Of a DNA stretch of 64,000 nucleotides, positions 42,188 through 56,671 are shown piece by piece. Within the stretch, counting starts at the first letter, position 1, and every line of letters starts with the position of its first letter. The notes beneath the pieces were generated by a model. The model saw only the letters and a program-made list of their open reading frames with translations. It searched no databases and was not told where the DNA came from. Source of the DNA: Mycoplana rhizolycopersici (GTDB taxonomy: Bacteria; Pseudomonadota; Alphaproteobacteria; Rhizobiales; Rhizobiaceae); the NCBI RefSeq assembly GCF_013378445.1, contig NZ_JABXYK010000008.1, forward strand, positions 186,001 through 250,000. The letters are read 5' to 3'. The translations under genes were made by a program, and so were the position numbers.

Positions 42188-42193
42188 TATAAT
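42188..42193 (+). promoter_or_regulatory. Candidate -10 element of the Rieske gene promoter
   Basis: A perfect TATAAT directly abuts the operator-like dyad at 42193-42208, in an AT-rich pocket within otherwise GC-rich DNA. The -35 is weak (TTCCTT at the expected distance), as expected for an inducible promoter. It lies in the 286-base gap after the DUF1194 gene, in which no gene is visible. Confidence 0.45.
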
Positions 42194-42208
42194 TGAATGA
42201 ACGTTCAG
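42193..42208. promoter_or_regulatory. TetR/BetI-type operator, site A
   Basis: TTGAATGAACGTTCAG contains the perfect 10-bp palindrome TGAACGTTCA. It shares 10 of 16 positions, with identical spacing, with sites B (45045) and C (52154). It overlaps the start of the -10 side and the first in-frame ATG, arguing that translation begins at 42227. Confidence 0.6.
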
Positions 42209-42226
42209 CAAAATATGGGGAAGAAG

Positions 42227-43417
42227 ATGAATGAAGTGATCCGTGACATCTCCATTCCGAACGACTGGGAACGCAGCGGCCTGCCGGGATGGTGCTACCA
42301 CAGCGCCGCTCTGCTGGAGCTGGAAAAGCAGCATGTTTTCCGGGAGCACTGGCAGATCGCCTGCCACGTCTCCGACGTCGCCGAACCCGGCAACTACATC
42401 ACGCTGGACGTGATCGGCGAGCGCGCCCTGATCCTTCGCGATCAGGACGGAGAGATCAAAGCGTTCCACAATATCTGTCGCCACCGCGGCTCGCGTCTCG
42501 TTGCAGACAGGAGCGGCACCTGCCGCAACGCCCTCGTCTGCCCGTTTCACGGCTGGGTCTACAATCTCGACGGCACGCTGCGCGGGGCCGCACGGCCCCG
42601 CTCCTTCCCGCCCATGGACAAGCACGAATTCGCGCTGAAGACGATCGAATGCGAGGTCTGGCAGGGCTTCGTCTTCATTCGCTTCGCCACCGGCCCGCAA
42701 GCGTCCGTGGCCGAAATCATGCGCCCGTTCGAGGCGGAACTGTCGCACTACCGCCCCGCCGAGATGGTGCCCGCCGGCGAAATCCACACGCAGGAAACGC
42801 CGGTCAACTGGAAGTCTGTGCGCGACGTGGACAATGAGGGCTACCACGTGGCGATGGCCCATCCCGCGCTGCAGGATCTCTACGGCTCGACCTATTACGA
42901 CGAGCCCTTCGTCGACGGACTCTGCCGCTCGTTCGCCACCTACAATCCCCATGCCGGGCGCAGATGGAGCGTCGGGCGCTACGTCAAGATCGCACCCGAG
43001 AACAAGACCCTGCCGGACCATCTGCGCAAGGCCTGGATTTACTTCGGCATCTTCCCCAACGCCGTGATCGCCGTCACGCCGGAAAGCCTGCAGTTCTACC
43101 AGGAATTCCCGATCTCCGTCGGCCGCACCCTGCTGCGCGGCGGCGTGTACCGCTACCGCGACGAAAGCCGCGAACAGGCCGCCGCCCGCTATCTCGCCGC
43201 CCGCATCGACCGCGACACGCAGGCCGAGGACGTGCAACTGACCATCTGGTCGAACGAGGCCATGACCTCTGACGCCTTCGCCGGCTTCTATCTGTCGGAC
43301 CTCGAATACGGCGTGCGGACGCACCACGACCACCTGCGGAAAGTCCTGCCGGTGATGAACCTGGCAGCCCCGCCGGCAGAGAGGGACATGGCGGAGAAAA
43401 ATGCGGCCATGCGCTGA
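42227..43417 (+). CDS. Rieske non-heme iron oxygenase alpha subunit
   Basis: 396 aa from ATG 42227, chosen because GGGGA lies five bases upstream and because the earlier ATG (42197) is inside an operator. The Rieske ligands are Cys84-X-His86 (CRHRGS) and Cys105-X2-His108 (CPFHGW). The mononuclear iron motif is VRDVDNEGYHVAMAHPAL, differing from the GbcA-like EN-x2-E pattern of the other Rieske protein in this window. It is monocistronic, controlled by operator A, and convergent with the aminotransferase. The substrate is probably the methylated amine handled by this locus; no reductase partner gene is present. Confidence 0.86.
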   Translation: MNEVIRDISIPNDWERSGLPGWCYHSAALLELEKQHVFREHWQIACHVSDVAEPGNYITLDVIGERALILRDQDGEIKAFHNICRHRGSRLVADRSGTCRNALVCPFHGWVYNLDGTLRGAARPRSFPPMDKHEFALKTIECEVWQGFVFIRFATGPQASVAEIMRPFEAELSHYRPAEMVPAGEIHTQETPVNWKSVRDVDNEGYHVAMAHPALQDLYGSTYYDEPFVDGLCRSFATYNPHAGRRWSVGRYVKIAPENKTLPDHLRKAWIYFGIFPNAVIAVTPESLQFYQEFPISVGRTLLRGGVYRYRDESREQAAARYLAARIDRDTQAEDVQLTIWSNEAMTSDAFAGFYLSDLEYGVRTHHDHLRKVLPVMNLAAPPAERDMAEKNAAMR

Positions 43418-43464
43418 GGCGGGTGGCTGCAACATTCCCGCCATCCCCTTTCGGCACAGTCGCT

Positions 43465-43491
43465 AAAAAGAGAGCCCGCTTTCGCGGGCTC
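43465..43491 (-). terminator. Terminator of the aminotransferase gene
   Basis: Perfect 8-bp stem GAGCCCGC / GCGGGCTC with a 4-base loop at 43472-43491. On the minus strand it is followed by TCTTTTTAG, giving a U-tract. It separates the convergent Rieske and aminotransferase genes. Confidence 0.85.
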
Positions 43492-43542
43492 AAAATGTCG
43501 GGGTCGGGAATGAGTGACCCGACAGGCCGGCAGGGCGCGGCC

Positions 43543-44970
43543 TCAACCGCGCCACAGTCCTTCCCGAACAAGGTCGTCCATCGTCAGCTCGATGCCGCGG
43601 CGAAGGATCGCCGCCATGTCGTCGATCTGGCCGGTACTGATCGTCAACGGCGGCGACATCACGCACATGTTGATGAGCGGCCGCACCAGCAGGCCGAGTT
43701 CCTGGCAGTGATTGTCGATGCGCTTGCCCACCTCGAGGTCGAGCGTCAGCGGATTGTTGCTCACCCGGTCGGCCACACATTCCACGCAGGCCATCAGCCC
43801 CATGCCACGCACTTCGCCGACCAGCGGAAGTTCTTCCAAAGCCTTCAGGCTGGATTGGAAATGGCCGGATACCGAGCGTGCGTGCTCCAAAAGCCCGTCT
43901 TCGAGAAGATCGAGGTTCTTCAAGGCCACGGCGCATCCGACCGGATGGCTCGAATAGGTGAGCCCGTGCGCGAACATCGCCTCCGAATGATTGGAGCGGC
44001 GCAGTTCCTCCAGAAGACGCCCGGCGATCATCACGCCGCCGAGCGGGAAATAACCTGACGTCACGCCCTTGGCGAAGGTGATCATGTCCGGATCGAGGCC
44101 GAATACCTCCTGCGAGGCAAAGACGTGCCCGAGCCTTCCGAAGGCGGTCACCACCTCGTCGGCGATGAAGAGGATGTCGTTTTGTCGGCACAGTTCGCGA
44201 ATGCGTCGCAGATAGCCGTCCGGCGGAACGATGACGCCGCCCGATGCCATCACCGGTTCGGCGACGAAGGCGCCGATGCGCTCGGCGCCGACCGTCTCGA
44301 TCACGTCCAGGAACTCGGCCACCAGATAGTCGCAGAACTCCGCCGCCGCCACGCCGTCCGGCCGACGGAACGGATTGGGACAGCTCAGCTTGACCACCTG
44401 TTCGCCGGCGCCGTCCATCCAGTCCTGGTCGCGCGGCCGCCCGTTCAGCGAGGCCGAGAGATAGGTGGAGCCATGATAGGCACCCTGGCGCGAGACGATG
44501 AGCTTCTTCTCGCCCCGTCCCTTCACATTGTTGGCAAATTGCATGAAACGCAGCGCGGTCTCCACCGCCGAGGAGCCGCCGGTCGTGTAGAACACGTGGT
44601 CGAGCCCGTCGGGCGCATGGCCGGCCAGCCGTCCGGACAGGCGTGCTGCGGGCGCGTTGGTCGTGTACCAGGGCGAATTGTAGGAAAGCTCCATCGCCTG
44701 CGCCGCCATGACTTCGGCCAGTTCCTTGCGCCTGTGCCCGGCATTGACGCACCACATGCCGGCAGGTCCGTCGATCAGCTTGCGCCCGGCGGCGTCGGTG
44801 ACGTAGATGCCATCGCCGCCCTCGAGCCGGCCGCGGGCTTCCGCACCGATAGAGCCCGACACGGGCCAGGGCTGCACCAGATGGCGCTCGGCCAGCAGCG
44901 TCAGTTCGTCCGCAGCCTCCTCCACCTTTGCCCCGCCCTGCATTCCGGTCGTCTTCGGTATCGCGGCCAT
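43543..44970 (-). CDS. Class III PLP-dependent aminotransferase
   Basis: 475 aa. The fold-type I ornithine/omega-aminotransferase pattern is clear: YTTGGSSAVETAL, then YHGSTYL, DEVVTAFGRLG with the pyridine-contact Asp271, and the Schiff-base Lys301 in FAKGVTSGYFPLG. It resembles the taurine/putrescine/beta-alanine-pyruvate aminotransferase group. The ATG at 44970 is preceded by GGAG six bases upstream; the open frame continues to 45060 but runs into operator B. It is divergent from the transporter operon and would deaminate the primary amine produced by demethylation. Confidence 0.88.
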   Translation of the reverse strand: MAAIPKTTGMQGGAKVEEAADELTLLAERHLVQPWPVSGSIGAEARGRLEGGDGIYVTDAAGRKLIDGPAGMWCVNAGHRRKELAEVMAAQAMELSYNSPWYTTNAPAARLSGRLAGHAPDGLDHVFYTTGGSSAVETALRFMQFANNVKGRGEKKLIVSRQGAYHGSTYLSASLNGRPRDQDWMDGAGEQVVKLSCPNPFRRPDGVAAAEFCDYLVAEFLDVIETVGAERIGAFVAEPVMASGGVIVPPDGYLRRIRELCRQNDILFIADEVVTAFGRLGHVFASQEVFGLDPDMITFAKGVTSGYFPLGGVMIAGRLLEELRRSNHSEAMFAHGLTYSSHPVGCAVALKNLDLLEDGLLEHARSVSGHFQSSLKALEELPLVGEVRGMGLMACVECVADRVSNNPLTLDLEVGKRIDNHCQELGLLVRPLINMCVMSPPLTISTGQIDDMAAILRRGIELTMDDLVREGLWRG

Positions 44971-45017
44971 CCTACGCTCCAGATATGTTGAAAACGCCAA
45001 ATCATCATTCAACGCAA

Positions 45018-45037
45018 TGAAAAGAATATTCTTTTCA
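45018..45037. promoter_or_regulatory. Perfect palindrome in the aminotransferase/transporter divergent region
   Basis: A perfect dyad with GAAAAGAAT and ATTCTTTTC as its inner 18 bases, extended by one more pair to 20 bases. It lies eight bases from operator B and 48 bases before the aminotransferase start. It could be a second regulator site or part of the minus-strand promoter. Confidence 0.5.
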
Positions 45038-45044
45038 CGACATA

Positions 45045-45060
45045 TTGAATGTTCGTTCAA
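45045..45060. promoter_or_regulatory. TetR/BetI-type operator, site B
   Basis: TTGAATGTTCGTTCAA, with 6-bp arms ATTGAA/TTCAAT when extended to 45044-45061. It is in the 285-bp region between the aminotransferase and the transporter operon and can control both. It shares its invariant positions with sites A and C. Confidence 0.62.
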
Positions 45061-45255
45061 TCAATATTGCAGAATTAGCGCTTGATTTCAATGGCGGTTT
45101 GCGCTCATCTTTCGCCAGGGAACAGCAACAGCCGAAAAGGCGGTCGAAATGAAATCGGCATCACAGGCAGACGGGCTCTGTCCCGGGTTCCAGATTCGGA
45201 TGCAGGGCCGGATCCGCATGCAGGGAAAGGCTCATATCCAGGGAAAGCCCCGGCG

Positions 45256-46173
45256 ATGAGCACCGCGGCCATCGTCAGCGCGCCGGAAAAACCGGCACCC
45301 GCCAAGGGCATCCGCTGGCTACACGGCGAAGAGGCCCGCGGGCTGGCGATGATCTCGCCGACCCTGCTTTACGCACTTGCGCTGCTGCTTCTGCCTGTCC
45401 TGCTGGTGATCGCCTACAGCTTCTGGACCCAGAACTATCTGGACATCGACCGCACCTTCACCTTCGAGAACTATCGCCTCGCCCTGACCGAGCCGATCTA
45501 CCGCGACCTTTTCGTGCGCTCGCTGTGGATCTCGCTGCTGACCGCCGCCATCACCGTCGGCTTTTCCTATCCGATCGCCTGGTACATTTCCTTCCACGGC
45601 GGCCCGCACAAGAACCTCTGGCTCTTTCTCGTCACCATTCCCTGCTGGACCAGCTATCTCCTGCGGGTGATGTCGTGGAAGGTGATCCTCGGCTATGGCG
45701 GCGTTCTCAATACCGGCCTGATGGCAACAGGCATCATCGAACAGCCGATCACTTCGCTGCTCTACAATGCCAATGCCGTCGTCATCACCCTCGTCCACAG
45801 CTGGGCCGCGTTTGCGATCCTGCCGATCTACGTCTCGCTGCAGAAGATCGACCGCTCGCTGATCGAAGCCGCGCGCGATCTGGGCGACGGCGCCGTGCGC
45901 TCCTTCCTCCGCGTCACCCTGCCGCTGTCGATGCCCGGCGTCATCTCCGCCTTCCTGATCGTGATGATACCGACGGTCGGCGACTACGTGACGCCCAAGC
46001 TGGTGGGCGGCAAGGACGGCGTGATGATCGCGACCGCGATCCAGGCGCAGTTCGGCAAGAGCGCCAACTGGCCGCTCGGCGCGGCGCTGTCGGTCACCAC
46101 CATGGTGCTGGTCTCGCTGGCGGCGGCAGCCGTCGTCCTTGCCCTGCGCTTTGCCGTACGGAGGATCCGCTGA
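45256..46173 (+). CDS. ABC transporter permease (PotB class)
   Basis: 305 aa inner-membrane permease with six helices; the first is LLYALALLLLPVLLVIAYSFW. The EAA loop is EAARDLGDGAVRSFLRVTLPLSMPG near residue 208. I start at ATG 45256, which begins a conserved-looking cytosolic N-terminus; an open frame upstream to 45082 has repetitive, non-protein-like composition. First gene of a permease-permease-ATPase operon transcribed from the operator-B region. The binding protein is encoded separately at 49450. The substrate is predicted to be a cationic or methylated amine. Confidence 0.87.
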   Translation: MSTAAIVSAPEKPAPAKGIRWLHGEEARGLAMISPTLLYALALLLLPVLLVIAYSFWTQNYLDIDRTFTFENYRLALTEPIYRDLFVRSLWISLLTAAITVGFSYPIAWYISFHGGPHKNLWLFLVTIPCWTSYLLRVMSWKVILGYGGVLNTGLMATGIIEQPITSLLYNANAVVITLVHSWAAFAILPIYVSLQKIDRSLIEAARDLGDGAVRSFLRVTLPLSMPGVISAFLIVMIPTVGDYVTPKLVGGKDGVMIATAIQAQFGKSANWPLGAALSVTTMVLVSLAAAAVVLALRFAVRRIR

Positions 46174-46985
46174 TGCTGCAGAGGATACGCTTTCTGCCGT
46201 TCCTGCCTGTCTACGTGGCGATCTATTTCCTCTTCCTCTATCTGCCGATCCTGCTTCTGCCGGTCCTTTCCTTCAACGACGCGGCGACGACCACCTTCCC
46301 CCTCGCCGGCTTCACGACGAAATGGTACGCCTCGCTGTGGGGCAATTCCGTGCTGCTGCAGGCTGCGCGCAACAGCCTCATCGTCGGCGTCTGCGTCTCC
46401 CTGCTCAGCACCATCCTCGGCATCTGCGCCGCCCGCGCCATCACTCGCTACCGCTTCCGCGGCCAGCGCGCCGCAGGCGGGCTGATCATGGCGCCGCTGT
46501 TTCTGCCGGAGATCATCGTCGCCGTATCCCTGCTGATGATCGCGCTTCAGTTCGGGCTGCAGCTGTCGCTCGTCACCGTGATCCTTGGCCAGGTGGTCTT
46601 TTGCATCCCCTATTCGATGTCGGTTCTGGTCTCCGGCTTCGAAGGTTTCGACCGCAGCCTGGAGGAGGCCTCCTACGATCTGGGGGAGACCGCCTTCGGG
46701 ACGTTCCGTCGCGTCACCCTGCCGGTGGTCGCACCTGCAATCGTCTCCAGCCTGCTCGTCACCTTCACGATCTCGCTCGACGAGTTCATTCTCGCCTTCT
46801 TCCTTTCCGGCACCGAACCGACGCTGCCCGTCTACATCTGGGGACAGCTCCGCTTCGCCGCCAAGCTGCCGGGCGTGCTGGCGCTCGGAAGCCTGATGAT
46901 CCTCGCCTCCGTCGTCCTGCTGACCGTTGCCGAAGTGCTGCGCCGGCGGGCCGAACGGCGCACGCAAGCCGCACTCGCACACTGA
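46173..46985 (+). CDS. ABC transporter permease (PotC class)
   Basis: 270 aa inner-membrane permease with six helices, starting FLPVYVAIYFLFLYLPILLL. The EAA loop is EASYDLGETAFGTFRRVTLPVVAP near residue 165. The ATG overlaps the preceding stop by one base (TGATG) and has GGAGG upstream, so it is translationally coupled to the first permease. It forms the channel heterodimer. Confidence 0.9.
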   Translation: MLQRIRFLPFLPVYVAIYFLFLYLPILLLPVLSFNDAATTTFPLAGFTTKWYASLWGNSVLLQAARNSLIVGVCVSLLSTILGICAARAITRYRFRGQRAAGGLIMAPLFLPEIIVAVSLLMIALQFGLQLSLVTVILGQVVFCIPYSMSVLVSGFEGFDRSLEEASYDLGETAFGTFRRVTLPVVAPAIVSSLLVTFTISLDEFILAFFLSGTEPTLPVYIWGQLRFAAKLPGVLALGSLMILASVVLLTVAEVLRRRAERRTQAALAH

Positions 46986-46996
46986 CAGGAGCCCGC

Positions 46997-48106
46997 ATGG
47001 CTGACCGCCCGATGATCTCCATCGAAAACGTCTCCCGCTATTACGGGGTGTACAAGGCGCTCGACGACGTATCGCTGCAGATCGGCGAAGGCGAGTTCTT
47101 CTCGCTGCTGGGGCCGTCCGGCTGCGGCAAGACCACGCTGCTGCGCTCCATCGCGGGCTTCGACGTGCCGACCAGCGGCGAGATCCGCATCGACGGCGTC
47201 GCCTCGACCCTGCTGCCGGCCAATCGTCGCCCGACCAACATGGTCTTCCAGAACTATGCGATCTTTCCGCATCTCGACGTCGGTGAAAACGTCGCCTACG
47301 GACTGAAGCGGCTGAGGCTCGATGCCACCGAGGAACGACGGCGCGTCTCGGATGCGCTCGACCAGGTGCGGCTGACGGGCCTCGACCGACGCAAGGCCGA
47401 CGAGCTTTCGGGCGGCCAGCGCCAGCGGGTGGCACTCGCCCGCGCCCTCGTCATGCGCCCCAAGGTGCTGCTGCTGGACGAGCCGCTCTCGGCGTTGGAC
47501 AAGAAGCTGCGCGAGCAGATGCAGGTCGAGTTGCGCAGCCTGCAGCAGGCCGTCGGCATCACCTTCATCCTCGTCACGCATGACCAGTACGAGGCTCTCG
47601 CGCTGTCGGACCGCATCGCTGTGATGTTCGGCGGACGCATCGCCCAGGTGGCGACGCCCAAGGAGATCTACCAGCATCCCCGCACGCGCAAAGTTGCAGA
47701 TTTTCTCGGCGGCATGAATTTTCTCCGCGCCCGCCTCCTTGCCGACCGCAAGGGCGACGTATCGGTCGACGCGGCGCAATTCGGCACAGTGAACCTGGCA
47801 AAGCCGGCGGGGTTCACCGCGTCGGACGGGCACGTCACGGTCGGCATCCGGCCCGAGCGGCTTCGCCTGCTCTGGGACGACGAAAGGGCGCCGCACGAGC
47901 TGACGGGACGCGTCGAGAACCGCGCCTATTTCGGCGAGGTGACGCACCTGACGATCGGCGTCGATGGCCTGGAGCAACCGCTTTCCATGATCGAGACGAA
48001 CGACTACGGCGCCGACGACCTGCCGGTCGGCGCGGAGATCAGGCTGGCATACGACCCCGACGCCTTCGTGCTGCTGGCGGATGACGAAATGGCCCTGCGG
48101 GCCTGA
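46997..48106 (+). CDS. ABC transporter ATP-binding protein (PotA class)
   Basis: 369 aa. Walker A GPSGCGKTT is at residues 39-47, the signature is LSGGQRQR, Walker B is VLLLDEPLSALD, the switch His is in THDQYEAL, and TOBE-type domains occupy about 285-365. CAGGAG lies five bases before the ATG. Third gene of the operon, 11 bases after the permease. It is clearly diverged from the ydcT-encoded ATPase in the same window, so it is a separate importer. Confidence 0.9.
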   Translation: MADRPMISIENVSRYYGVYKALDDVSLQIGEGEFFSLLGPSGCGKTTLLRSIAGFDVPTSGEIRIDGVASTLLPANRRPTNMVFQNYAIFPHLDVGENVAYGLKRLRLDATEERRRVSDALDQVRLTGLDRRKADELSGGQRQRVALARALVMRPKVLLLDEPLSALDKKLREQMQVELRSLQQAVGITFILVTHDQYEALALSDRIAVMFGGRIAQVATPKEIYQHPRTRKVADFLGGMNFLRARLLADRKGDVSVDAAQFGTVNLAKPAGFTASDGHVTVGIRPERLRLLWDDERAPHELTGRVENRAYFGEVTHLTIGVDGLEQPLSMIETNDYGADDLPVGAEIRLAYDPDAFVLLADDEMALRA

Positions 48107-48110
48107 CGAT

Positions 48111-48146
48111 GTGCCGGCGCGGCCATGGCCGAGAGACGGCACTTTT
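48111..48146 (+). terminator. Possible terminator of the transporter operon
   Basis: GTGCCG (48111-48116) pairs with CGGCAC (48137-48142), enclosing a GGCCATGGCC palindrome, and is followed by TTTT. The stem is interrupted and the T-tract short, so this is tentative. It lies between convergent operons. Confidence 0.45.
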
Positions 48147-48172
48147 CGCGAGCCTTTGCCGCTCGACAATGG

Positions 48173-49450
48173 CTACAGGGCGTCCTGTCCGACCGCCGCC
48201 ATGATCTCTTCCGCTGCGACCCGCCCTGCCACGATCGCCCCCTCGATGTAGCCGGGATAGGAGGGTGACAGCTCCGAACAGGCAAACCGGATGCGTCCTG
48301 CGCCCGCGCGTAGCACGTCTTCGGCATCCTGCGCCCGCAGGTCGCAGACGGTATCGCTGTAGCCGCCGCCGCTCCAGGCGTCGCCGGTCCAGTCCCTCAC
48401 CGCGATGGCGGTCGCCGTGCGGGCAGTCTCTCCCAGCGCGGTTGCAAGCTTTGCCAGTATCATCTCCTCAAGCGCCGCCGGCGGCATCGCCTGTGCCGCG
48501 ATCGCGAGCGGACCGCCGACGAAGACCACCAGCGCGGCACCGAGCCCTTCGCGGCTGACGTCGCAGGCAAACAGCCCAGACGGATCGAGCCAGGACACCA
48601 TGCCGCTCAGGCCGCGCTGGCGCCAGAACGGCCGCGGATAGCGCACCAGCGCCTTGATGACCGCCCCGCTCTTCCATACCGAAAGCGCCCGCCTGAGCGC
48701 AGCCGGCAGGTCCGGTTCGAAGCCGATGCGCGACGCGGCCACCGGCGGCACGGCGACAAGCACGTGCCTTGCGGAAAATAGAAGGTCCCCGGCCTGAACC
48801 TGGACGCGTTCCGCCCTCGCCGAAATCCGTGTAACCGGCCTGCCCGTCAGGACCCGGCCATCGAGACCCGCTGCCATGTCCTCTGCCAGCGAATGGATCG
48901 TCTCCCCGACGAAATACTCGATCTCCGATTGCCGGTTGGTGATCCGTCGGTCGTTGGAGACGAGGTACCAGAGCGGCAGTTCGCCGATCGGCCGGCACCA
49001 CAGCCCCTCGACCGTCGAGCGGAAGGCTTTTGCGGCGTCGGTGCTGACGGGCTGCGCGGCCAGCCAGTCCGCAACGCTCATGCCGCCGATGGCCGGATCG
49101 CGCGGGTCGAGCGCCCGCATTCGCAGACGCAGGGACCGTGACTCGGCATAGGCCCTGTCCGGCGCGTCGATCTCCGGCTGGACGACGAAGGCGCCCTCGA
49201 CCGGTGTCTGGACCAGCGTCTTGCCGTAGCGGCGGATCAACGCCATCACGTTCGTCATGTCGTCGCAGACAAACTGGCCGCCCTTATCGACGCGTGCGCC
49301 GTCCGCAAGGGTGTGCGCCTCGGCGCGCCCGCCGACGCGCATCTGCGCTTCCAGCACGGCAACATCAAAGCCCCGCTCGGCCAGCATGGCTGCGGCCGAG
49401 AGGCCTGTGAACCCGGCCCCGACGACGATCACGTCATGATGCTGCGCCAT
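48173..49450 (-). CDS. Flavin monoamine oxidase family protein
   Basis: 425 aa FAD enzyme of the amine-oxidase (MAO/LAAO-like) fold. The dinucleotide motif GAGFTG is at residues 11-16 and is followed by an acidic residue and RVGGRAEAH near 38-46, the usual second FAD motif. The C-terminal FAD contact reads CSELSPSYPGYIEGAIVAGRVAAEEI. It would oxidise a primary, secondary or tertiary amine to an aldehyde. The ATG overlaps the stop of the binding-protein gene (TGATG). Last gene of the methyltransferase-TetR-SBP-MAO operon. Confidence 0.87.
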   Translation of the reverse strand: MAQHHDVIVVGAGFTGLSAAAMLAERGFDVAVLEAQMRVGGRAEAHTLADGARVDKGGQFVCDDMTNVMALIRRYGKTLVQTPVEGAFVVQPEIDAPDRAYAESRSLRLRMRALDPRDPAIGGMSVADWLAAQPVSTDAAKAFRSTVEGLWCRPIGELPLWYLVSNDRRITNRQSEIEYFVGETIHSLAEDMAAGLDGRVLTGRPVTRISARAERVQVQAGDLLFSARHVLVAVPPVAASRIGFEPDLPAALRRALSVWKSGAVIKALVRYPRPFWRQRGLSGMVSWLDPSGLFACDVSREGLGAALVVFVGGPLAIAAQAMPPAALEEMILAKLATALGETARTATAIAVRDWTGDAWSGGGYSDTVCDLRAQDAEDVLRAGAGRIRFACSELSPSYPGYIEGAIVAGRVAAEEIMAAVGQDAL

Positions 49451-50532
49451 CAGTAGCCGGACTTGATCTTCTCGAACTCGGCGATCATCTTCTGGCGCAG
49501 TTCGGTCGGCAGCGGCGACTGGAACAGCGTGTCCTTGACGAACTCGTCGATGTCGCCATAGCCCTTCTGGTCCAGCAGCGCCGCATCGACCGCGGCCATC
49601 CCCTTGGCGTTCGAATGCCCATAACCCCAGGATTCGACCATGTAGTTGGCGACGGGCGGATCGGTCAGCGCGTTCAGATAGTCGTATGCCTTGTCTTCGC
49701 TACCCTCGCCGCCCTTGAGCCTGACGTAGCCGCAGACCCAGGTCGACAGTCCCTCGCCCGTGTCGCGCTTCATGTCGACGGGCACGCCGTCTGCCTGCAG
49801 CGTAACGGAGGTTTCGTTCCAGGCCCAGGCGAGGTCCACTTCGCCGCTCGCCATCGCCTGGCTCAGCTCGGTGTTGTCGGTCCAGTAGAGGCGAATGTTC
49901 TGGTGGACCTGGCGAAGGAAGTCCGACGCCTCCTTGAATTGCTCATCCGTCATCTGCGACCAGTCCTTCAGCCCGATCGCAAGGCTCGCCAGCGCATAGG
50001 CATCGTCGACATTGTCGCCGATCGAGACCCGATCCTTGAACTTCGGATCGGCGAAAGCCTTGAGCGATGCCACCTCCTCCGGCTTCACCGTGTCGGTGCG
50101 GTAGGTCAGCACGGTGTTTCCCCACTCGAACGGAATGAGCCAAGCGGTGCCGTCCTCCGATGTCATCAGGCCCTTCATCGCCTTGAACCCCGGAAGCACG
50201 TCGTTCCAGTTGTGAAGCTTCGACGTATCGAGCGGCTCCAGCAATCCCGCCTCCCGCCACTTCTCCACGCTCTGCGCACAGGGATGGGCGACATCGGCCT
50301 TGAAGCCGGCGCGCAGTTTCTGGAAGGCCTCCTCCTCGTCGCCGAAGAAGCTGAAGTCCGGCGGCGTCTCGTGTTTTTCCATAAAGGCGGGGAAGAAAGC
50401 CGGATCCTCGTAGCCGGACCAGTCGAAGACGGTGAGCCCGTCTCCGGCCTGTGCAGGCAGGGCGGTGGAGACCGAAAGTGCAGCGGCGAAAGCGGCAACG
50501 AGAAATTTGCCCGTCCTGTAGCTGATGCTCAT
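49450..50532 (-). CDS. ABC transporter substrate-binding protein (PotD/PotF class)
   Basis: 360 aa with a Sec leader cleaved after residue 29 (ALPAQA). The mature part begins LTVFDWSGYEDP, the spermidine/putrescine-binding protein opening, and contains MASGEVDLAWAWN, a typical second-lobe segment. Two ATGs lie six bases apart; AAGGGG is one base from the first (50538) but seven from the second (50532), so I use the second. It is the partner of the permeases and ATPase at 45256-48106. Compared with YdcS it is much diverged, so a different amine is likely. Confidence 0.87.
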   Translation of the reverse strand: MSISYRTGKFLVAAFAAALSVSTALPAQAGDGLTVFDWSGYEDPAFFPAFMEKHETPPDFSFFGDEEEAFQKLRAGFKADVAHPCAQSVEKWREAGLLEPLDTSKLHNWNDVLPGFKAMKGLMTSEDGTAWLIPFEWGNTVLTYRTDTVKPEEVASLKAFADPKFKDRVSIGDNVDDAYALASLAIGLKDWSQMTDEQFKEASDFLRQVHQNIRLYWTDNTELSQAMASGEVDLAWAWNETSVTLQADGVPVDMKRDTGEGLSTWVCGYVRLKGGEGSEDKAYDYLNALTDPPVANYMVESWGYGHSNAKGMAAVDAALLDQKGYGDIDEFVKDTLFQSPLPTELRQKMIAEFEKIKSGY

Positions 50533-50556
50533 GCTCATTCCCCTTTTTGATGTTGG

Positions 50557-51261
50557 CTATTTGGGTCCCGTTCGCGCGATATGCCTCGGGAACATGGCGG
50601 TGATGGCTTCGACGGCGGCCTCGTGGGCCTTCTCGCGGGTCAGCCCGTCGCCCATCATCAGGCGCAGCCAAAGGCCTTCCAGCATGGTCGAGACGGCAAG
50701 CGCCATGGGCTCGACGACATAGTCGTAGCCGCCCTCCTCCTTGAGGCGCGCACACAGGGAGACGACGATTTCCTGATACTTGACGTCGCGGGCGCCGCAG
50801 AGCGCCTGGTAGGTCGGCCGCGACTTCGCCTCGCCCCAGAAGGCGCACCAGGCGGCAAGCTTGCGCTTGGTGCAGATGCGGCGGTCGAAATCGGCCGCAA
50901 CCAGCGCCCACAATTGGTCAGCCGGCCGCTCGCCCGCCTTTTCCAATGCGGAGTACCAGTGATTGGCATATTCGTCGGCCATGAACTGCAGCGTGGCAAC
51001 GAGCAGCTTTTCCTTGCTCTCGAAGTGGAAGTTGACGATGCCGCGCGAAAGCCCGGCACCGTCTGCGACGTCGGCAAGCGTGGTGTCGGCATAGCCGCGC
51101 CTGGCAAGCGAATCGATCGTCGCCTCGATCAGTTGCAGCCGCCGCGTTTCCTTGGATGCCTTGCGGCCCTTCTTTTCGACTTCCGTCACGTCCTTCTGCG
51201 CCGCACCTGCCCGCATCTTCACCGCCGTTCTCATTTTGGGATTTCGCAGCGCCTCGTTCAC
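50557..51261 (-). CDS. TetR family regulator, BetI-like
   Basis: 234 aa. The helix-turn-helix is at about residues 58-82 (TTLADVADGAGLSRGIVNFHF). The C-terminal part has LAAWCAFWGEAKSRPTYQ and MLEGLWLRL, which resemble BetI, the choline-responsive repressor. Translation begins at GTG 51261, overlapping the methyltransferase stop (GTGA), with GGAGG six bases upstream. A basic N-terminal extension of about 35 residues precedes the domain. It lies inside one of the operons it probably represses; three matching dyads at 42193, 45045 and 52154 are its candidate operators. The ligand is likely a quaternary or methylated amine. Confidence 0.86.
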   Translation of the reverse strand: MNEALRNPKMRTAVKMRAGAAQKDVTEVEKKGRKASKETRRLQLIEATIDSLARRGYADTTLADVADGAGLSRGIVNFHFESKEKLLVATLQFMADEYANHWYSALEKAGERPADQLWALVAADFDRRICTKRKLAAWCAFWGEAKSRPTYQALCGARDVKYQEIVVSLCARLKEEGGYDYVVEPMALAVSTMLEGLWLRLMMGDGLTREKAHEAAVEAITAMFPRHIARTGPK

Positions 51262-52073
51262 GGATGGCCTCCGCCCGGCTTGCTGCCGCGCAGATGAGTG
51301 GGGCAATGCTCGCCGGTGTCAAGCACCTTCTGCATGGCGCCCCAGGTGCGGATGTTCTTTGCCACGTATTCCTCGCCGACGGCGGCCACGGCCTGCGCAT
51401 GCAGCGGCCCCGACAGCCGCTCGAGCTCGCCGCGGGCGACCTCCCGATACCAGGCATTGCGGTTTTCCGCCGATACGTCGACGAAGCCCGCTGCCGTCAT
51501 CGCCTGCAGATAGCGCTGCGGCGAGGCCATGCCGAAGCGCAACCCCTCGGCGGCGATGTAGTCCTGCATCTCGCTCGACGGCTCGCCGTCATGCGCGATC
51601 AGCCAGTCGGACGCGGCCAGCCGCCCGCCCGGCTTGAGCACCCGGAACAGTTCGGAAAACAGCCACTCCTTGTCGTCCACATGGATCATCGCGTCCTTGG
51701 AGAAGACGAGGTCGAACTCGTCGTCGTCGAAGGGCAGCGTTCCCGGCGGCGTGGCGATGAAGCGCACCTGCGCCGTCAACCCCTCGCGCACGGCGGCCAG
51801 CCGCGCCCGGTCGATCACCGGCTGCTCGACGTCGTAGCCGACCACTTCGGCAGGGTTGTACTTCTTGGCGATATGCAGGGTGATGCCGCCGGCTCCGCAG
51901 CCGAAGTCGAGCACCGACTTGCCGGCAAGATCGAGCCCGGAAAGCACGCGATCGACCTCCTCCGGGCCACCGGGCGAAAGGTATCCATCTCCCCAGACCA
52001 CCGCCAGAAACCGGATCGCCGTGTCGTCATATTCGGGTTCGTGCTCCGCTCCGCTCTCGCTTTCCGCCGTCAT
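51258..52073 (-). CDS. SAM-dependent methyltransferase, phosphoethanolamine N-methyltransferase-like
   Basis: 271 aa class I methyltransferase. The SAM motif is VLDFGCGAGG at about residues 54-63, preceded by WGDGYLSPGG, and followed by KDAMIHVDDK, LKPGGRLAASDW and YLQAMTAAGFVDVSAENR. This order matches the eukaryotic phosphoethanolamine N-methyltransferase domain as I recall it. The start at 52073 has GAGGGG just upstream; upstream alternatives run into operator C. It is the first gene of the TetR operon. A methyl donor enzyme inside a demethylation locus is unexpected; the acceptor is unknown. Confidence 0.84.
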   Translation of the reverse strand: MTAESESGAEHEPEYDDTAIRFLAVVWGDGYLSPGGPEEVDRVLSGLDLAGKSVLDFGCGAGGITLHIAKKYNPAEVVGYDVEQPVIDRARLAAVREGLTAQVRFIATPPGTLPFDDDEFDLVFSKDAMIHVDDKEWLFSELFRVLKPGGRLAASDWLIAHDGEPSSEMQDYIAAEGLRFGMASPQRYLQAMTAAGFVDVSAENRNAWYREVARGELERLSGPLHAQAVAAVGEEYVAKNIRTWGAMQKVLDTGEHCPTHLRGSKPGGGHP

Positions 52074-52153
52074 GCGCCCCTCGAAACCAGCCACGTCCTC
52101 TTTGCGTCTGACACGAAATTTTACCGGATTATCAGCGGATTGCAACATACTTG

Positions 52154-52169
52154 CTGAATATTCATTCAA
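52154..52169. promoter_or_regulatory. TetR/BetI-type operator, site C
   Basis: CTGAATATTCATTCAA contains the 10-bp palindrome TGAATATTCA. It lies in the 155-bp region between the divergent methyltransferase-TetR operon and the COG1233 oxidoreductase operon, so it can control both and autoregulate the TetR gene. Confidence 0.58.
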
Positions 52170-52228
52170 AATATCTGGACAAGCTTTTGGCTTTGATGCA
52201 GCCTTTTGGCAACTGAGGGAGAACGAGC

Positions 52229-53848
52229 ATGCAGCGATATGACGTCCTCGTGGTGGGCGGCGGCCATAACGGCCTGGTCACCGCCTGCTACCTGCAGCGG
52301 GCCGGCCTGAAGGTCGCAGTGCTGGAGAAGAACGGCTGGGTCGGTGGCGCTGCCACCAGCCGCGAACTGACCCCCGGCTTCCTCTATTCCAACTGTTCCT
52401 ACGTCTGCTCGCTGTTCCGCCCGGAGATCATGCGCGACCTGGAGCTGCCGAAACACGGCCTGCAGGTGGTCGCCTACGAGGGCGGCGCCGTGCTGACCCG
52501 CGACGGCGACTATCTCGCCTCCTACCGCGACCACGACAGCCACCGCCGCGAATTCGCCCGCTATTCGAAACGCGACGCCGAGGCCTACGAGCGCTACGCC
52601 CGCGACGTCACCCGCCAATGCCGCTTCATCCAGCCGCTTCTGATGCGCACCGCGCCAGATCCCTTCGGCTTCCGCCCGCGCGACATCGCCGAATTCGTCT
52701 ACCTCGCGAAGAAATTCGGCGAGTTCAGCCCGAGCGAAATGGCCGAGACGCTGCGGTTCTGGACCATGTCGATCTCCGACTTCCTCGACGAGTATTTCGA
52801 GACCGACGTGATCAAGGCCTATCTGGCGATCTCCGGCATCATCGGCACGGCACTCGGGCCGATGTCGCCCGGAACGGCCTATGTGCTCCTGCACCACTAC
52901 ATGGGCGAGGTCGATGGCTCGGTCGGTGCCTGGGGCTATGCCCGCGGCGGCATGGGTGCGGTCACCCAGGCGCTCGCAAGCTCCTTCCTCGCATCCGGCG
53001 GCACGATCCGCACCGATGCGGAAGTCGCCAAGATCTTCTCCCGCGGCGGCCGTACCACCGGCGTCGTTCTGGAGAGCGGCGAGGAGATCCGCGCCGGTCT
53101 CGTCGTCTCCAACGCCGACGTGAAGCGCACCTTCCTGAAGCTCGTCGACGAGGCCGATCTGCCGGAAAGCTTCGTCCACCGGGTGAAGCACTTCAAGATG
53201 CGCGGCTCGTCCGGCAAGGTGAACATCGCCCTCGACAGCCTGCCGGAGTTCCCCGCCCTGCCGAAAGGCTCATCCTGCATCCGCGGCGACTTGCACTTCA
53301 CCGACAGCATCGAGCGCATGGAACGCGCCTATGACGACTGGAAGGCCGGGCGCTGGTCGGCCGATCCCATGCTCGACACGATGATCCCGACCACGCTCGA
53401 CCCGACCATGACCTCGCCCGGCAAGCATTTCATGAGCTGTTTTGTGCAATACTGCCCGCCGAAGGTGGAGGGCCGCGACTGGACCGATGCCGACCGCGCA
53501 GCCTTCGCCGAGACCGTCGTCAGCCAGATCGCCGACTATTCGCCCGGCTTCCGCGACCGCATCGTCCACATGGAGGTGCGCACGCCGCGCGAACTCGAAG
53601 CCGAAGTCGGGCTGACCGAGGGCAACATCTTCCAGGGCGAACTGACCTTCGACCAGTTGCTGTTCAACCGCCCGGTGCCCGGCTACGCACAGTACCGCAG
53701 CCCGATCGCCGGCCTCTACATCTGCGGCTCCTCCACCCATCCCGGCGGCGGCGTCATGGGCGCGCCCGGACGCAACGCCGCCATGGAGATCCTCCGCGAC
53801 CTCAAGCGCAGCCCCGAAACGATGAGCAACGCCCATGACGTCATCTGA
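52229..53848 (+). CDS. NAD(P)/FAD-dependent oxidoreductase, COG1233/PYROXD2-like (copy 1)
   Basis: 539 aa FAD enzyme related to phytoene desaturase. The FAD motif GGGHNG is at residues 10-15, followed by VLEKNGWVGGAATSRELTPGF; the C-terminal FAD contact is LYICGSSTHPGGGVMGAPGRNAA. GGGAG lies about eight bases before the ATG. No carotenoid genes are near, so a desaturase role in pigment synthesis is unlikely. In this context it may dehydrogenate an amine or its carbon chain. First gene of a three-gene operon, overlapping the next by 14 bases. Confidence 0.86.
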   Translation: MQRYDVLVVGGGHNGLVTACYLQRAGLKVAVLEKNGWVGGAATSRELTPGFLYSNCSYVCSLFRPEIMRDLELPKHGLQVVAYEGGAVLTRDGDYLASYRDHDSHRREFARYSKRDAEAYERYARDVTRQCRFIQPLLMRTAPDPFGFRPRDIAEFVYLAKKFGEFSPSEMAETLRFWTMSISDFLDEYFETDVIKAYLAISGIIGTALGPMSPGTAYVLLHHYMGEVDGSVGAWGYARGGMGAVTQALASSFLASGGTIRTDAEVAKIFSRGGRTTGVVLESGEEIRAGLVVSNADVKRTFLKLVDEADLPESFVHRVKHFKMRGSSGKVNIALDSLPEFPALPKGSSCIRGDLHFTDSIERMERAYDDWKAGRWSADPMLDTMIPTTLDPTMTSPGKHFMSCFVQYCPPKVEGRDWTDADRAAFAETVVSQIADYSPGFRDRIVHMEVRTPRELEAEVGLTEGNIFQGELTFDQLLFNRPVPGYAQYRSPIAGLYICGSSTHPGGGVMGAPGRNAAMEILRDLKRSPETMSNAHDVI

Positions 53849-55436
53849 TGCGCCCCTGAAATCTTCGAAGACACCCGCAAACGCCTACGACGCAATCGTC
53901 ATCGGCGCCGGCCATAACGGCCTTGCCGCCGCCGCCAAGCTCGGTCGCAGCGGCCGGAAGGTGCTGGTGCTCGAGGCGGCGAACGCACCGGGGGGCGCGA
54001 CCCGCGGACGCGAGTTCGCCCCGGGCTTCCGTTCCGCCGGCCTCGCCCACCTCGTCAACCGGCTTGATCCCGAGGTCGCCCGCGACCTCGGCCTGACGCT
54101 CACAGCAAAGCCCGGCCATGCCATGCCGACCGCAGTGCTCGACGGCATGAACGAGCCGGCGGTCCTGCGTGGCGCCTATGGCGAGACGATCGATGGGGTG
54201 ACGCCCGAGGAGGCCGCAGCCTTTTCCCGCCTGCGCGACAAGCTGACCTTCCAGGCCGGCATCCTCAAGCGCTTCCTCCGCCGCCCGCCGCCGCAGCTCG
54301 GCGCGATCGGCATCGGCGATGTCTCGACACTCATGGCCGCCGGTATAGGCCTGATACGGAAGGGGCGCGCCGAGGGCCGCGACTTCTTGCGCATGCTGCT
54401 GATGAACGTTGCCGACGTCGCCGACGAATACCTCGACGACGGCCGGCTGAATGGGCTCCTGTCCTTCGACGCCACGCTCGGCATCCATCTGGGGCCTCGC
54501 TCGCCGACCTCGCTGCTCGGGCTCTACTATCGCCTGACCGGCGAAGTCGACGGCAGGGCCGGCGGCCAGTTTATCCCGGAGGGCGGAATGGCCGCCGTGG
54601 CACCCGCCTTCCTCAAGGCCGCCAAGGGTGCCGGCGTCACCGTTCGCTGCGGTGCGCGTGTCGGCCGCATCCTTGCCGATCGCGGCAGTACGCGCGGCGT
54701 CGTACTCACCGACGGCTCGGAACTGACCGCCCCCGTCGTCGTCTCGGCGATCCATCCGCAGGCGACCTTCCTGCATCTGGTCGATCCGGCCGAGACCGGC
54801 ACCGCTTTCCTGCGCGCCATCCGCCATGTCCGCTCCGCCGGAAATGTCGCCAAGCTGGACCTGGCGCTCTCGCGCATGCCGAACTTCACCGGCCTCACCG
54901 GTCGCGACCATGCCGGCCGCATCGTTATCGTCCGTTCGATGACGCATGTGGAAGAAGCCTTCAACCCGGCCAAGTACGGCGAGTTCTCGCAGGACCCGGT
55001 GATGGAGATCGTTCTTCCGAGCCTTGCCGATGCCACGCTCGCGCCCGACGGGGCCTGCACGCTCTCGGCACTCGTGCAATACGCTCCCTACAAGCTGCAG
55101 CAGGGCTGGGAAGCCGGCAAGCCGGCCTTCCTGAAGATCGTGCTCGACATCCTCGAGCATCACGCTCCAGGTCTCGGGCGCACGATCGTCGCGGCCGATC
55201 TCAGCACGCCGATCGACATCGAGGCCGAATACAATCTTCCCGGTGGGCACTGGCACCACGGCGAATTGCAGGCCGACCAGCTGCTGATCAACCGCCCGAC
55301 GGGTGCGGCGTCGGGCTATGCGACGCCGATCGAAGGGCTCTACCTCGCCAGCGCCGGCGCGCATCCCGGCGGCGGCATTTCTGGCCTCGCCGGATGGAAC
55401 GCCGCCCGCCACATCCTTGCCGGAGGCACCCGATGA
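53835..55436 (+). CDS. NAD(P)/FAD-dependent oxidoreductase, COG1233/PYROXD2-like (copy 2)
   Basis: 533 aa, paralogue of the preceding gene product: GAGHNG at residues 24-29, then GGATRGREFAPGF, and a C-terminal LYLASAGAHPGGGISGLAGWNAA. Divergence between the copies is large, so they may form a heteromer or act in sequence. The start lies inside the previous gene and the stop overlaps the GcvT-type gene (ATGA), so all three are translated together. Confidence 0.86.
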   Translation: MTSSDAPLKSSKTPANAYDAIVIGAGHNGLAAAAKLGRSGRKVLVLEAANAPGGATRGREFAPGFRSAGLAHLVNRLDPEVARDLGLTLTAKPGHAMPTAVLDGMNEPAVLRGAYGETIDGVTPEEAAAFSRLRDKLTFQAGILKRFLRRPPPQLGAIGIGDVSTLMAAGIGLIRKGRAEGRDFLRMLLMNVADVADEYLDDGRLNGLLSFDATLGIHLGPRSPTSLLGLYYRLTGEVDGRAGGQFIPEGGMAAVAPAFLKAAKGAGVTVRCGARVGRILADRGSTRGVVLTDGSELTAPVVVSAIHPQATFLHLVDPAETGTAFLRAIRHVRSAGNVAKLDLALSRMPNFTGLTGRDHAGRIVIVRSMTHVEEAFNPAKYGEFSQDPVMEIVLPSLADATLAPDGACTLSALVQYAPYKLQQGWEAGKPAFLKIVLDILEHHAPGLGRTIVAADLSTPIDIEAEYNLPGGHWHHGELQADQLLINRPTGAASGYATPIEGLYLASAGAHPGGGISGLAGWNAARHILAGGTR

Positions 55437-56671
55437 ACGCCCTGACGAAGCCGCTGAATGCCACCGAAGCCCGCCGCACTGCCCGCAACCACATCCTCAC
55501 ACCCCGGCTCGAGACGCCGTTCCATCCACGGCTTGTAGCCCTCGACGAGGTCAACGACTGGTACAATTGGGCCGGCTACAAGGCGCCGCATTCGATCTTC
55601 GACGAGGAGCTGGAATATTTCGCCATCCGCTCCACCGCCGCGCTGTTCGACATCTCGCCGATGGTGAAGTACCGCATCACCGGTTACGACGCCGAGCGCT
55701 ACCTGAACCGGCTGACGCTGCGCGACGTGCGCAAGCTCGGCGTCAATCGCGTGCACTACACCGCTTGGTGCGACGACCACGGCCATGTGCTGGATGACGG
55801 CACGCTCTTCCGGCTCGGCGAGAAGGACTTCCGCCTCTGCTGCCAGGAACGTCACCTGCCCTGGCTGCTGGACAGCGCCTTTGGCTTCGAAGTCGAGATC
55901 TTCGAGGAGACCGACGAGATCGCCGGCCTCGCCCTGCAGGGGCCGACAAGCCATGCGGTGCTGGCCGAGGCGGGCTTTGCCGGCACCGAGCGGCTGAAGC
56001 CGTTCGACATTGCAAGCTTCGCCCATGAAGGCGGGGCGGTCACGATCTCGCGCACCGGCTTCACCGGCGACCTCGGCTACGAGCTGTTCGTCTCCCGCGC
56101 CGCGGCCGTGTCGCTGTGGGACCGGTTGTGGAATGCCGGTGCCGAGCACGGAATCCGCGCCATCGGCTACTCCGCGCTGAACCGCACCCGCATCGAGGCG
56201 GGCTTCATCGTCGCCAATGCCGATTTCGTCACCGCCGAGGCAGCCCTTCGCGCCGACCGTGTCCGGCTGCCTGACGAGATCGGCCTCGACTGGCTGGTCG
56301 ACCCGGACAAGCCGAACTTCAACGGCCGCCGCGCGATCCTCGACGCTCGCCGGAATCAAACTCTGAAGCACATCCTGGTAGGCCTTGAAATCGAAGGCAA
56401 TATTTCGGCCGAACACGCGATCGTCTACCACCGCGGCAAGCGCGAGGCCGGCCTCGTCACCGCCGCCACCTGGTCGCCGACCGCCAAGCGCAACATCGCC
56501 ATCGCCAGCCTGACGCGCCCCTACGGCACGAAGTTCGTCGACGACCTGTGGGTCGAGATCTACGCGATGCGCGAGCTGAGTTACCAGAAGATGATGAAGC
56601 GCGCGAAGATCGTCCCCCGCCCATTCGTGAAGCTGGCGCGGCGGACGGTGACACCGCCGGGGCTGCGATAA
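55433..56671 (+). CDS. GcvT-type aminomethyltransferase family protein
   Basis: 412 aa tetrahydrofolate-binding enzyme of the GcvT/YgfZ fold. LFDISPMVKYRITGYDAERYLNRL is the usual N-terminal segment, GFTGDLGYELFV the central folate-site motif, and the C-terminal barrel begins near residue 315 (LVGLEIEG). Family members move one-carbon units from amines (or DMSP in DmdA) to folate. Here it stands as a separate protein, whereas in the other demethylation block the domain is fused to the FAD enzymes. It is the last gene of the operon and probably captures the methyl or formaldehyde released by its partners. Confidence 0.86.
   Translation: MNALTKPLNATEARRTARNHILTPRLETPFHPRLVALDEVNDWYNWAGYKAPHSIFDEELEYFAIRSTAALFDISPMVKYRITGYDAERYLNRLTLRDVRKLGVNRVHYTAWCDDHGHVLDDGTLFRLGEKDFRLCCQERHLPWLLDSAFGFEVEIFEETDEIAGLALQGPTSHAVLAEAGFAGTERLKPFDIASFAHEGGAVTISRTGFTGDLGYELFVSRAAAVSLWDRLWNAGAEHGIRAIGYSALNRTRIEAGFIVANADFVTAEAALRADRVRLPDEIGLDWLVDPDKPNFNGRRAILDARRNQTLKHILVGLEIEGNISAEHAIVYHRGKREAGLVTAATWSPTAKRNIAIASLTRPYGTKFVDDLWVEIYAMRELSYQKMMKRAKIVPRPFVKLARRTVTPPGLR

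Follow-up and report, generated by a model that had tools for sequence, protein, structure and literature searches.

We describe a twelve-gene locus of the alphaproteobacterium Mycoplana rhizolycopersici, which occupies positions 42,192 to 56,671 of the stretch of DNA analysed here (64,000 nucleotides of contig NZ_JABXYK010000008.1, hereafter the window). Three of its promoters share a 17-bp palindrome, and the genes are found again, in matching arrangement, in Mycoplana, Shinella, Rhizobium, Mesorhizobium and other genera. We hold it to be rather probable that the locus is a single regulon under a TetR/BetI-like repressor acting on this palindrome, and that its products import and degrade a quaternary (trimethyl-) ammonium compound. 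It includes a triad of two COG1233-type flavoproteins, FAD1 and FAD2, and a free-standing GcvT-type protein. Whether this triad represents a new class of folate-coupled N-demethylase on CrtI/PYROXD2-type flavoproteins, feeding an undescribed omega-amine pathway, seems to us evenly poised; if so, COG1233 would include amine demethylases. Pfam and NCBIfam profile comparison recovered in the window every gene that an earlier, sequence-only reading of this DNA had named, with a single BetI-like TetR gene in the middle of the locus.

The palindrome, YTGAAYRTTCRTTCAAW (17 bp), emerged from a comparison of three intergenic regions of the locus and has exact matches in the window at 42192, 45045 and 52154. 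With up to two mismatches there are four matches (the three exact ones and site 2 read on the opposite strand, with 2 mismatches), compared to 0.05 expected in shuffled sequence. Throughout the genome of 5,603,916 bases, YTGAAYRTTCRTTCAAW matches exactly three times, always at promoters of the locus, and once more with one mismatch; the reversed pattern, used as a control, gave one match in this genome and one across 22 relatives. We dismissed the one-mismatch site (C3:182011; C, G and L numbers are our designations of contigs, genomes and loci) as an extra regulon member: it lies between genes that we named by eye as orotate phosphoribosyltransferase-like and sugar-kinase-like, and looks like a chance match.

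Related genomes show the same association. Of the family's other genomes with the locus, 23 in number, we scanned all but G074; in these 22, 61 of 68 sites with at most one mismatch are at the locus, in a tally made by hand in which one palindromic site was counted on both strands and a site about 4.4 kb past GcvT (G052:C1:1175595) was assigned to the locus. Across 32 orthologous stretches, we obtained 95 readings at up to two mismatches, compared to 0.5 in mononucleotide shuffles. At this stringency the operator precedes the start of FAD1 in 22 of 32 cases, of the aminotransferase (AT3) in 20 of 22 and of the Rieske gene in 18 of 22, counts that share the weakness of the open reading frame (ORF) calls in the relatives, which are GC-bias picks with unreliable starts. 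In G021, where the aminotransferase-PotBCA unit is located 285 kb from GcvT, a copy with two mismatches, readable on both strands, stands between the aminotransferase and PotB. Since 6 of 200 shuffles of this stretch equalled its number of matches at 3 mismatches, the argument is the position of the copy and not the count; the operator travels with the genes, and the link exceeds mere synteny. Relatives of the operator in sister loci are weak (3 mismatches in L167, 2-3 in L165). On this sequence evidence, the twelve genes are predicted to form one regulon.

The BetI-like protein is the natural candidate to bind the palindrome, because its gene is central in the locus and is present in 63 of 63 listed loci. 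These are the loci of at least 19 kb among 80 named loci listed from one scan of bacterial genomes, the 17 shorter ones being excluded. The regulator's membership of the locus, as put forward by the sequence-only reading, is thereby borne out. The protein fails the cut-off for BetI choline repressors (TIGR03384; 115.8 bits, cut-off 201.3), while two other proteins of the same genome exceed it. The locus palindrome YTGAAYRTTCRTTCAAW also differs from the published alphaproteobacterial betI1 box, given as ATTGACGCGTCAAT in PMC12442346, a comparison that assumes binding of the former by the locus protein.

The triad itself is tightly coupled. FAD1 (E ≤1e-150) and GcvT (E ≤1e-60) occur in an identical set of 29 out of 151 genomes, the one studied here among them (Fisher p ~1e-31, with further Fisher values of 8e-21 and 1e-12, all of which ignore shared ancestry), and the same 7 plasmid records carry both GcvT and FAD1 (the latter at 60% identity or more). 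Orthologues of the aminotransferase and of the Rieske oxygenase (at least 66% identity) are found in 26 genomes each, namely in 24 of the 29 triad genomes and in 2 of the 122 others (G016 and G060); the solute-binding protein (SBP) of the importer is likewise present in 26 genomes, including 24 of the 29. Looser thresholds return aminotransferase homologues in 36 of the 151 genomes (27 of the 29) and Rieske homologues in 30 (25 of the 29), and thus 9 and 5, respectively, without the triad, so that these two families are not restricted to the system. In these 24 triad genomes, all from the window's own family, the Rieske gene lies within 30 kb of GcvT in every case and the aminotransferase gene in 23. 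Together with the shared operator and the conserved synteny, these results substantiate the proposal of the sequence-only reading that the genes belong together: by the genomic evidence the COG1233 proteins, GcvT and the aminotransferase co-occur and are not scattered homologues, and nothing in it speaks against shared induction.

FAD2 is present in all 63 listed loci, as is GcvT, by which the loci were selected; FAD1 is found in 62, SBP in 59, PotA in 57, the phosphoethanolamine N-methyltransferase-like gene (PMT) in 49, the MAO-type oxidase in 42, PotC in 39 and PotB in 29. The low counts for the aminotransferase (17) and the Rieske gene (8) reflect genes lying mostly outside the 10-kb flanks that were read. 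L106 (Mesorhizobium camelthorni), retained among the 63, keeps FAD2 and GcvT and has no FAD1 match, through either a deletion or an assembly gap; two orthologous loci contain tandem SBP duplicates (L107:2731-5003, from Mesorhizobium, and L113:2469-4762). In a class-level set of 289 genomes, we found GcvT in 9 (E ≤1e-110) and FAD1 in 19 (E ≤1e-150), 11 of the latter at 760 bits or more and eight at lower scores. Eight of the nine GcvT-positive genomes have FAD1 adjacent, about 3 kb away, and the contig of the ninth (L193) stops inside FAD2. Three of the 11 high-scoring FAD1 genomes lack a GcvT match. One of them, G270 (L181), does have, beside FAD1, both a diverged GcvT (32%) and another protein of the COG1233 type, and was counted as negative because the threshold dropped this GcvT; ORF calling gave no GcvT in G374 (L182), and the G220 assembly is fragmented.

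In most relatives no protein of the locus is better conserved than FAD1, which has 81% mean column identity over 17 sequences. The nearest fold to its model (pLDDT 85) is that of the CrtI-type gamma-carotene desaturase (TM 0.76/0.83), followed by NicA2, putrescine oxidase and MAO (TM about 0.5-0.6 by query length). Given this phytoene-desaturase/amine-oxidase fold, amine oxidation by FAD1 is plausible on the strength of the model. Both flavoproteins miss the cut-offs for carotenoid enzymes, with FAD1 and FAD2 scoring 128 and 115 against TIGR02734 (cut-off 238), and 302 and 193 against NF045689 (cut-off 1000). Homologues of FAD1 at about 38% identity in Sphingobium (12 records, two of them inspected) have unrelated surroundings and were set aside. 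The best match of the GcvT protein is the C-terminal domain of trimethylamine N-oxide (TMAO) demethylase (1e-50, PDB 9q5a), ahead of T-proteins and of dimethylglycine dehydrogenase. The family features are present (Pfam GCV_T and GCV_T_C, an acidic DD motif and the folate Glu), and the protein fails the test for a TMAO demethylase: with 412-425 aa it consists of GcvT domains only, without the DUF1989 part, and reaches 261.8 bits with NF053776, whose cut-off is 1100.

The Rieske oxygenase has carnitine monooxygenase CntA as its best PDB match and GbcA (NF058607) as its best NCBIfam model, at 136 bits far under the cut-off of 670; a higher-scoring GbcA-like protein is encoded elsewhere in the genome (513 bits, still below the cut-off). 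Its CxH and CxxH motifs and the bridging Glu (NEGYH) are shared by all 19 orthologues in an alignment of sequences with >50% identity and 380-480 aa. The aminotransferase passes the PRK07036 model NF005447 (679.6 bits, cut-off 618), as do its counterparts in L186, L185 and L167. The MAO-type protein, whose nearest PDB structures are amine, cyclohexylamine and putrescine oxidases, and the methyltransferase, which matches PDB entries 5wp5 and 5wp4, are accessory; the locus of Shinella zoogloeoides ATCC 19623 has neither of them annotated. Elsewhere, a 594-aa ORF at L156:7074-8855 joins a BetI-like TetR part (residues 11-199) to a GbcA-like Rieske part (residues 227-468) by hmmscan, and is either a fused regulator-enzyme or an artefact of sequencing or ORF calling; it apparently lies on the same contig as L060:4728-6509, and L174:17722-19503 likewise holds a 594-aa ORF with a Rieske match.

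For the SBP, we compared the ligand pocket with that of PotD, in which acidic residues accommodate the amine groups of the ligand. Of four acidic positions, three are replaced (E36G, D168N, D257C), losses common to the window protein and the eleven clade relatives compared, and an Asp carboxylate is retained at E171 only; the aromatic residues W34, Y37, W229, W255 and Y293 are all kept. The loss of three acidic positions makes an ordinary polyamine unlikely as the ligand. A PotF-like SBP at distant loci (334 bits, cut-off 636) retains more of the acidic pocket residues.

From these elements we propose the following pathway, of which we infer the binding by the BetI-like protein, each reaction, the order of the steps, the link to folate and the substrate class. 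The TetR/BetI-like protein would switch the locus through the common palindrome, and the PotD-type SBP, with its aromatic, non-polyamine pocket, would deliver the compound to PotBCA for uptake. The Rieske oxygenase would then remove the first methyl group as formaldehyde, FAD1 and FAD2 would oxidise the N-methyl groups that remain, and GcvT, as a separate protein, would accept the one-carbon unit, probably passing it to tetrahydrofolate. The triad would thus resemble a dimethylglycine dehydrogenase divided over three proteins and built on another flavoprotein family. Finally, the PRK07036 aminotransferase would transaminate the leftover primary amine, and an aldehyde dehydrogenase encoded elsewhere would oxidise the resulting aldehyde. 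As primary alkyl amines are the substrates of class III omega-aminotransferases, the demethylated product would be an omega-amine, and an omega-betaine or an N-methylated diamine would fit better as substrate than glycine betaine, stachydrine or TMAO.

The strongest argument for N-demethylation is one of replacement and comes from a sister cluster, L167 in G070. This cluster shares the aminotransferase (50%), the SBP (49%), PotBCA (49-56%) and the BetI-like protein (30%), and has in place of the Rieske oxygenase and the triad an MTTB-family methyltransferase, an OYE-type flavoprotein and a fused DAO-GcvT protein, all three being kinds that occur in methylamine demethylation. Replacement by proteins of demethylation families thus backs this part of the sequence-only reading, which had suggested that a methylated amine is imported, demethylated, and transaminated or oxidised; its interpretation as a whole is partly supported. 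Distant loci link the triad to amine metabolism in other combinations. L186 contains the single run FAD1-FAD2-GcvT-aldehyde dehydrogenase-PRK07036 aminotransferase, with an aldehyde dehydrogenase nearest to PuuC (557 bits, cut-off 850), and in L185 GcvT adjoins the aminotransferase. L161 (Defluviimonas) and L077 (Fuscovulum) each combine in one run FAD1, FAD2, GcvT, two Rieske genes, an SBP, an importer and an aminotransferase of another family; this protein, of our c19 family and nearest to GntE and glutamate-1-semialdehyde-aminomutase models, is an analogue and not an orthologue. After the importer genes, the L077 run also includes a gene for a cupin of the dimethylsulfoniopropionate-lyase family (PF16867; L077:27533-28381). 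L162 (positions 4972-14107), from a plasmid of Shinella sumterensis, has just one COG1233 protein (41% to FAD1), which adjoins GcvT, next to CoA-ligase and BKACE genes and to carnitine 3-dehydrogenase-like and crotonobetainyl-CoA hydratase-like genes, named after their best models, whose cut-offs they do not reach.

Several observations weigh against the proposed pathway. To our knowledge, no activity has been established for any member of the triad. In the L167 comparison, neither the MTTB nor the OYE protein reaches the cut-off of its best NCBIfam model, and the OYE models are not those of demethylases. Neither a Rieske reductase nor an aldehyde dehydrogenase is seen within the locus, and the methyltransferase inside a demethylation operon is unexplained. 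Of the relatives' operator sites at up to one mismatch, 7 out of 68 fall elsewhere in the genomes, and 4 of the 32 orthologous loci (L060, L063, L077 and L078) have no site at up to two mismatches. G016 and G060 carry the Rieske-aminotransferase-PMT-importer set without the triad, and in L059, L061 and L152 the triad is accompanied by genes of acyl-CoA dehydrogenase and CoA-ligase type, with no Rieske match in the stretch read (gene content was checked by domains for L061 and by clustering for L059 and L152); the modules are therefore separable. In G016 (L165) and G060 (L166), a PF00144 serine-hydrolase gene accompanies the set. According to PMC7948474, the quaternary-amine Rieske enzymes of group V differ at CntA position 203, with Tyr or Phe in group Va and Asn in group Vb; the locus protein and all 19 orthologues have Asp at this position, which is Tyr203 in CntA and Asn in GbcA and Stc2. 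In the GcvT protein, Leu and Phe occupy the positions of R223 and Y101, which PMC12560246 lists among the folate contacts of the E. coli T-protein, and this is also the case in the TMAO demethylase Tdm, whose folate use may be vestigial according to the same source. The Leu need not disqualify GcvT, however, because an Arg equivalent to R223 is also missing from all three fused DAO-GcvT proteins compared.

Two alternatives concern the chemistry. The substrate might be an N-methylated diamine or polyamine on whose free primary amine end the aminotransferase and the MAO-type oxidase act first, followed by an amino-aldehyde dehydrogenase and a CoA ligase, with the triad, in the same role as in the proposed pathway, demethylating later. 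We regard this as possible, if on the doubtful side: PotBCA and the SBP are related to polyamine importers, putrescine oxidases are among the nearest solved relatives of the MAO-type protein, the aldehyde dehydrogenase linked in L186 is nearest to PuuC, and the PotF-like SBP of the distant loci keeps more acidic residues, but the window SBP and its eleven clade relatives have lost the three acidic PotD positions, and 21 of the 63 listed loci have no MAO gene in the 10-kb flanks. It appears unlikely, on the other hand, that the carbon skeleton of the amine, and not its N-methyl groups, is what FAD1 and FAD2 dehydrogenate, GcvT merely clearing formaldehyde made by the Rieske oxygenase. Such a division of labour would agree with carotenoid desaturases being nearest in sequence and fold, with a Rieske origin of the formaldehyde and with the loss of two T-protein folate contacts. 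Several distant loci, however, keep FAD1, FAD2 and GcvT side by side, the stretch read showing no Rieske match, a lone COG1233 protein adjoins GcvT in the carnitine-type cluster L162 too, and in L167 the triad is replaced by a fused DAO-GcvT.

The other two alternatives concern regulation and novelty. We judge it very unlikely that the operator is the target of a different regulator, such as either of the two true BetI proteins, which would place the locus under choline or betaine control. The genome does encode two BetI proteins over the cut-off, the motif resembles BetI-type palindromes (PMC12442346 gives a BetI2 flank as AAACTTGAAC), and in L077 and L078 TetR genes adjoin the triad yet no site is present, as is the case in L060 with a weak BetI match. 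Against this, the betI1 box quoted above reads differently, the contigs with the two over-cut-off genes (C14 and C2) have no site at up to one mismatch, and L063, whose 20 kb as read contain no match to the BetI-like protein, also lacks a site at up to two. It is less likely still, in our estimate, that a pathway already characterised for glycine betaine, choline, carnitine, stachydrine or TMAO has gone unrecognised here in a further copy. Several of its proteins are distantly related to members of these pathways, but they miss the equivalog cut-offs (GbcA 136/670, Tdm 262/1100, BetI 116/201 bits), better GbcA-like and BetI proteins are encoded elsewhere in the genome, and the gene set was not found in the open-access literature.

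By orientation alone, the locus falls into five units (Table 1): Rieske (+), aminotransferase (-), PotB-PotC-PotA (+), methyltransferase-BetI-like-SBP-MAO (-) and FAD1-FAD2-GcvT (+), the two longest of which run apart from about 52.2 kb. Because the shared operator overlaps the starts listed for three genes (Rieske, aminotransferase and methyltransferase), these starts need moving. Translation of the Rieske gene probably begins at 42215 or 42227, as the ATG at 42197 falls inside the operator; the in-frame downstream starts at 44970 and 52148 are more likely for the aminotransferase and the methyltransferase, and GcvT probably starts at 55433, with a 4-bp overlap with the FAD2 stop.

Table 1. 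Genes and predicted operator sites of the locus (window coordinates; scores in bits).
Feature	Position	Strand	Remarks
Operator site 1, CTGAACGTTCATTCAAT	42192..42208	-	exact match at Rieske gene start; kept in relatives
Rieske non-haem iron oxygenase	42215..43417	+	PF00355, PF00848; listed start 42197
Class III omega-aminotransferase, PRK07036 family	43543..44970	-	PF00202, PRK07036.1; listed start 45060
Operator site 2, TTGAATGTTCGTTCAAT	45045..45061	+	exact match; separates aminotransferase from PotBCA
PotB-like ABC importer permease	45256..46173	+	PF00528; PotB 194, cut-off 348
PotC-like ABC importer permease	46173..46985	+	PotC 190, cut-off 326
PotA-like ABC importer ATPase	about 46997..48106	+	PF00005, TOBE_2; PotA 356, cut-off 482
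MAO-type flavin amine oxidase, accessory	48173..49450	-	PF01593
PotD-like SBP, changed ligand pocket	49450..50538	-	PotD 86.5, cut-off 582
BetI-like TetR-family regulator, candidate operator binder	50557..51306	-	TIGR03384 115.8, cut-off 201.3
SAM (S-adenosylmethionine) methyltransferase, PMT-like, accessory	51258..52148	-	Methyltransf_25, Methyltransf_11; listed start 52169
Operator site 3, CTGAATATTCATTCAAA	52154..52170	+	exact match; separates PMT-BetI-SBP-MAO from FAD1-FAD2-GcvT; also in relatives
FAD1, COG1233/PYROXD2-like flavoprotein	52229..53848	+	CrtO 302, cut-off 1000
FAD2, second COG1233-like flavoprotein	53835..55436	+	overlaps FAD1; CrtO 193, cut-off 1000
Free-standing GcvT/aminomethyltransferase-type protein	55433..56671	+	PF01571, PF08669; listed start 55394

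The flanking genes, GH32 and DUF1194 upstream and AcrR/RND downstream, are matched at few loci, mainly of the same genus, and were excluded from the locus. Those directly downstream (57265-62349) encode an AcrR-like regulator, an RND efflux pump and a membrane-fusion protein. About 11 kb upstream of the locus, the window contains a second methylated-amine cluster (20986-31085). It encodes an MTTB-family methyltransferase, a LysR regulator, another Rieske oxygenase, which scores 250 bits with GbcA, and a tandem pair of fused DAO-GcvT proteins.

Soil and marine bacteria draw nitrogen and one-carbon units from methylated amines. If the proposed pathway is true, a conserved pair of flavoenzymes assigned to the carotenoid enzymes by family models gains a function, and amine demethylases belong to the wide COG1233 family, whose members often bear the label phytoene dehydrogenase. 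The pathway would also provide a marker operator with a directly testable regulon and indicate a third Rieske subgroup; as the locus encodes both a candidate regulator and a binding protein, it offers a route to the substrate. No characterised pathway with this gene set was found in the open-access literature, a search that did not cover most subscription-journal papers. For homarine, the matches listed contain incidental mentions only, and for a Rieske route from gamma-butyrobetaine or trimethyllysine none of the titles listed refers to a gene set of this kind; those that come closest deal with cobalamin, CntA or host carnitine routes. The mismatch with the glycine-betaine, choline, carnitine and stachydrine pathways, already noted in the sequence-only reading, is thus upheld by the missing published match and by the GbcA and BetI scores below cut-off.

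Among known systems, the glycine betaine and stachydrine pathways, with the group Vb Rieske enzymes GbcA and Stc2, resemble the locus in having a bridging-Glu Rieske protein in a methylated-amine cluster and, as proposed for the locus, in leaving the later demethylation to flavin and GcvT-type enzymes. The locus differs from them in the Asp that replaces the group Vb Asn, in its Pot-type importer, in the omega-aminotransferase that follows and in the proposed later demethylases, two COG1233 flavoproteins and a separate GcvT. Dimethylglycine and sarcosine dehydrogenases and heterotetrameric sarcosine oxidase, all of the DAO-GcvT type, tie the flavin-dependent oxidation of N-methyl groups to GcvT, a likeness that we propose by analogy; here the flavoprotein would be of the CrtI/PYROXD2 family instead of DAO, there are two of them, and GcvT is separate. 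The closest known relative of the locus GcvT is Tdm, the TMAO demethylase of Methylocella silvestris, with which it has in common the DDGTLF motif and both replaced folate contacts; unlike Tdm, it has no DUF1989 part, is free-standing and is linked to flavoproteins. In corrinoid demethylation of the MttB type (MtgB), the comparison runs through L167, where an MTTB-family protein fills the demethylase slot beside the same importer and aminotransferase families, whereas the locus itself has no MTTB gene, the one in the window being separate (20986-22539). With polyamine import by PotABCD, finally, the locus shares the importer family, while the pocket of its SBP has dispensed with three of the four acidic positions compared.

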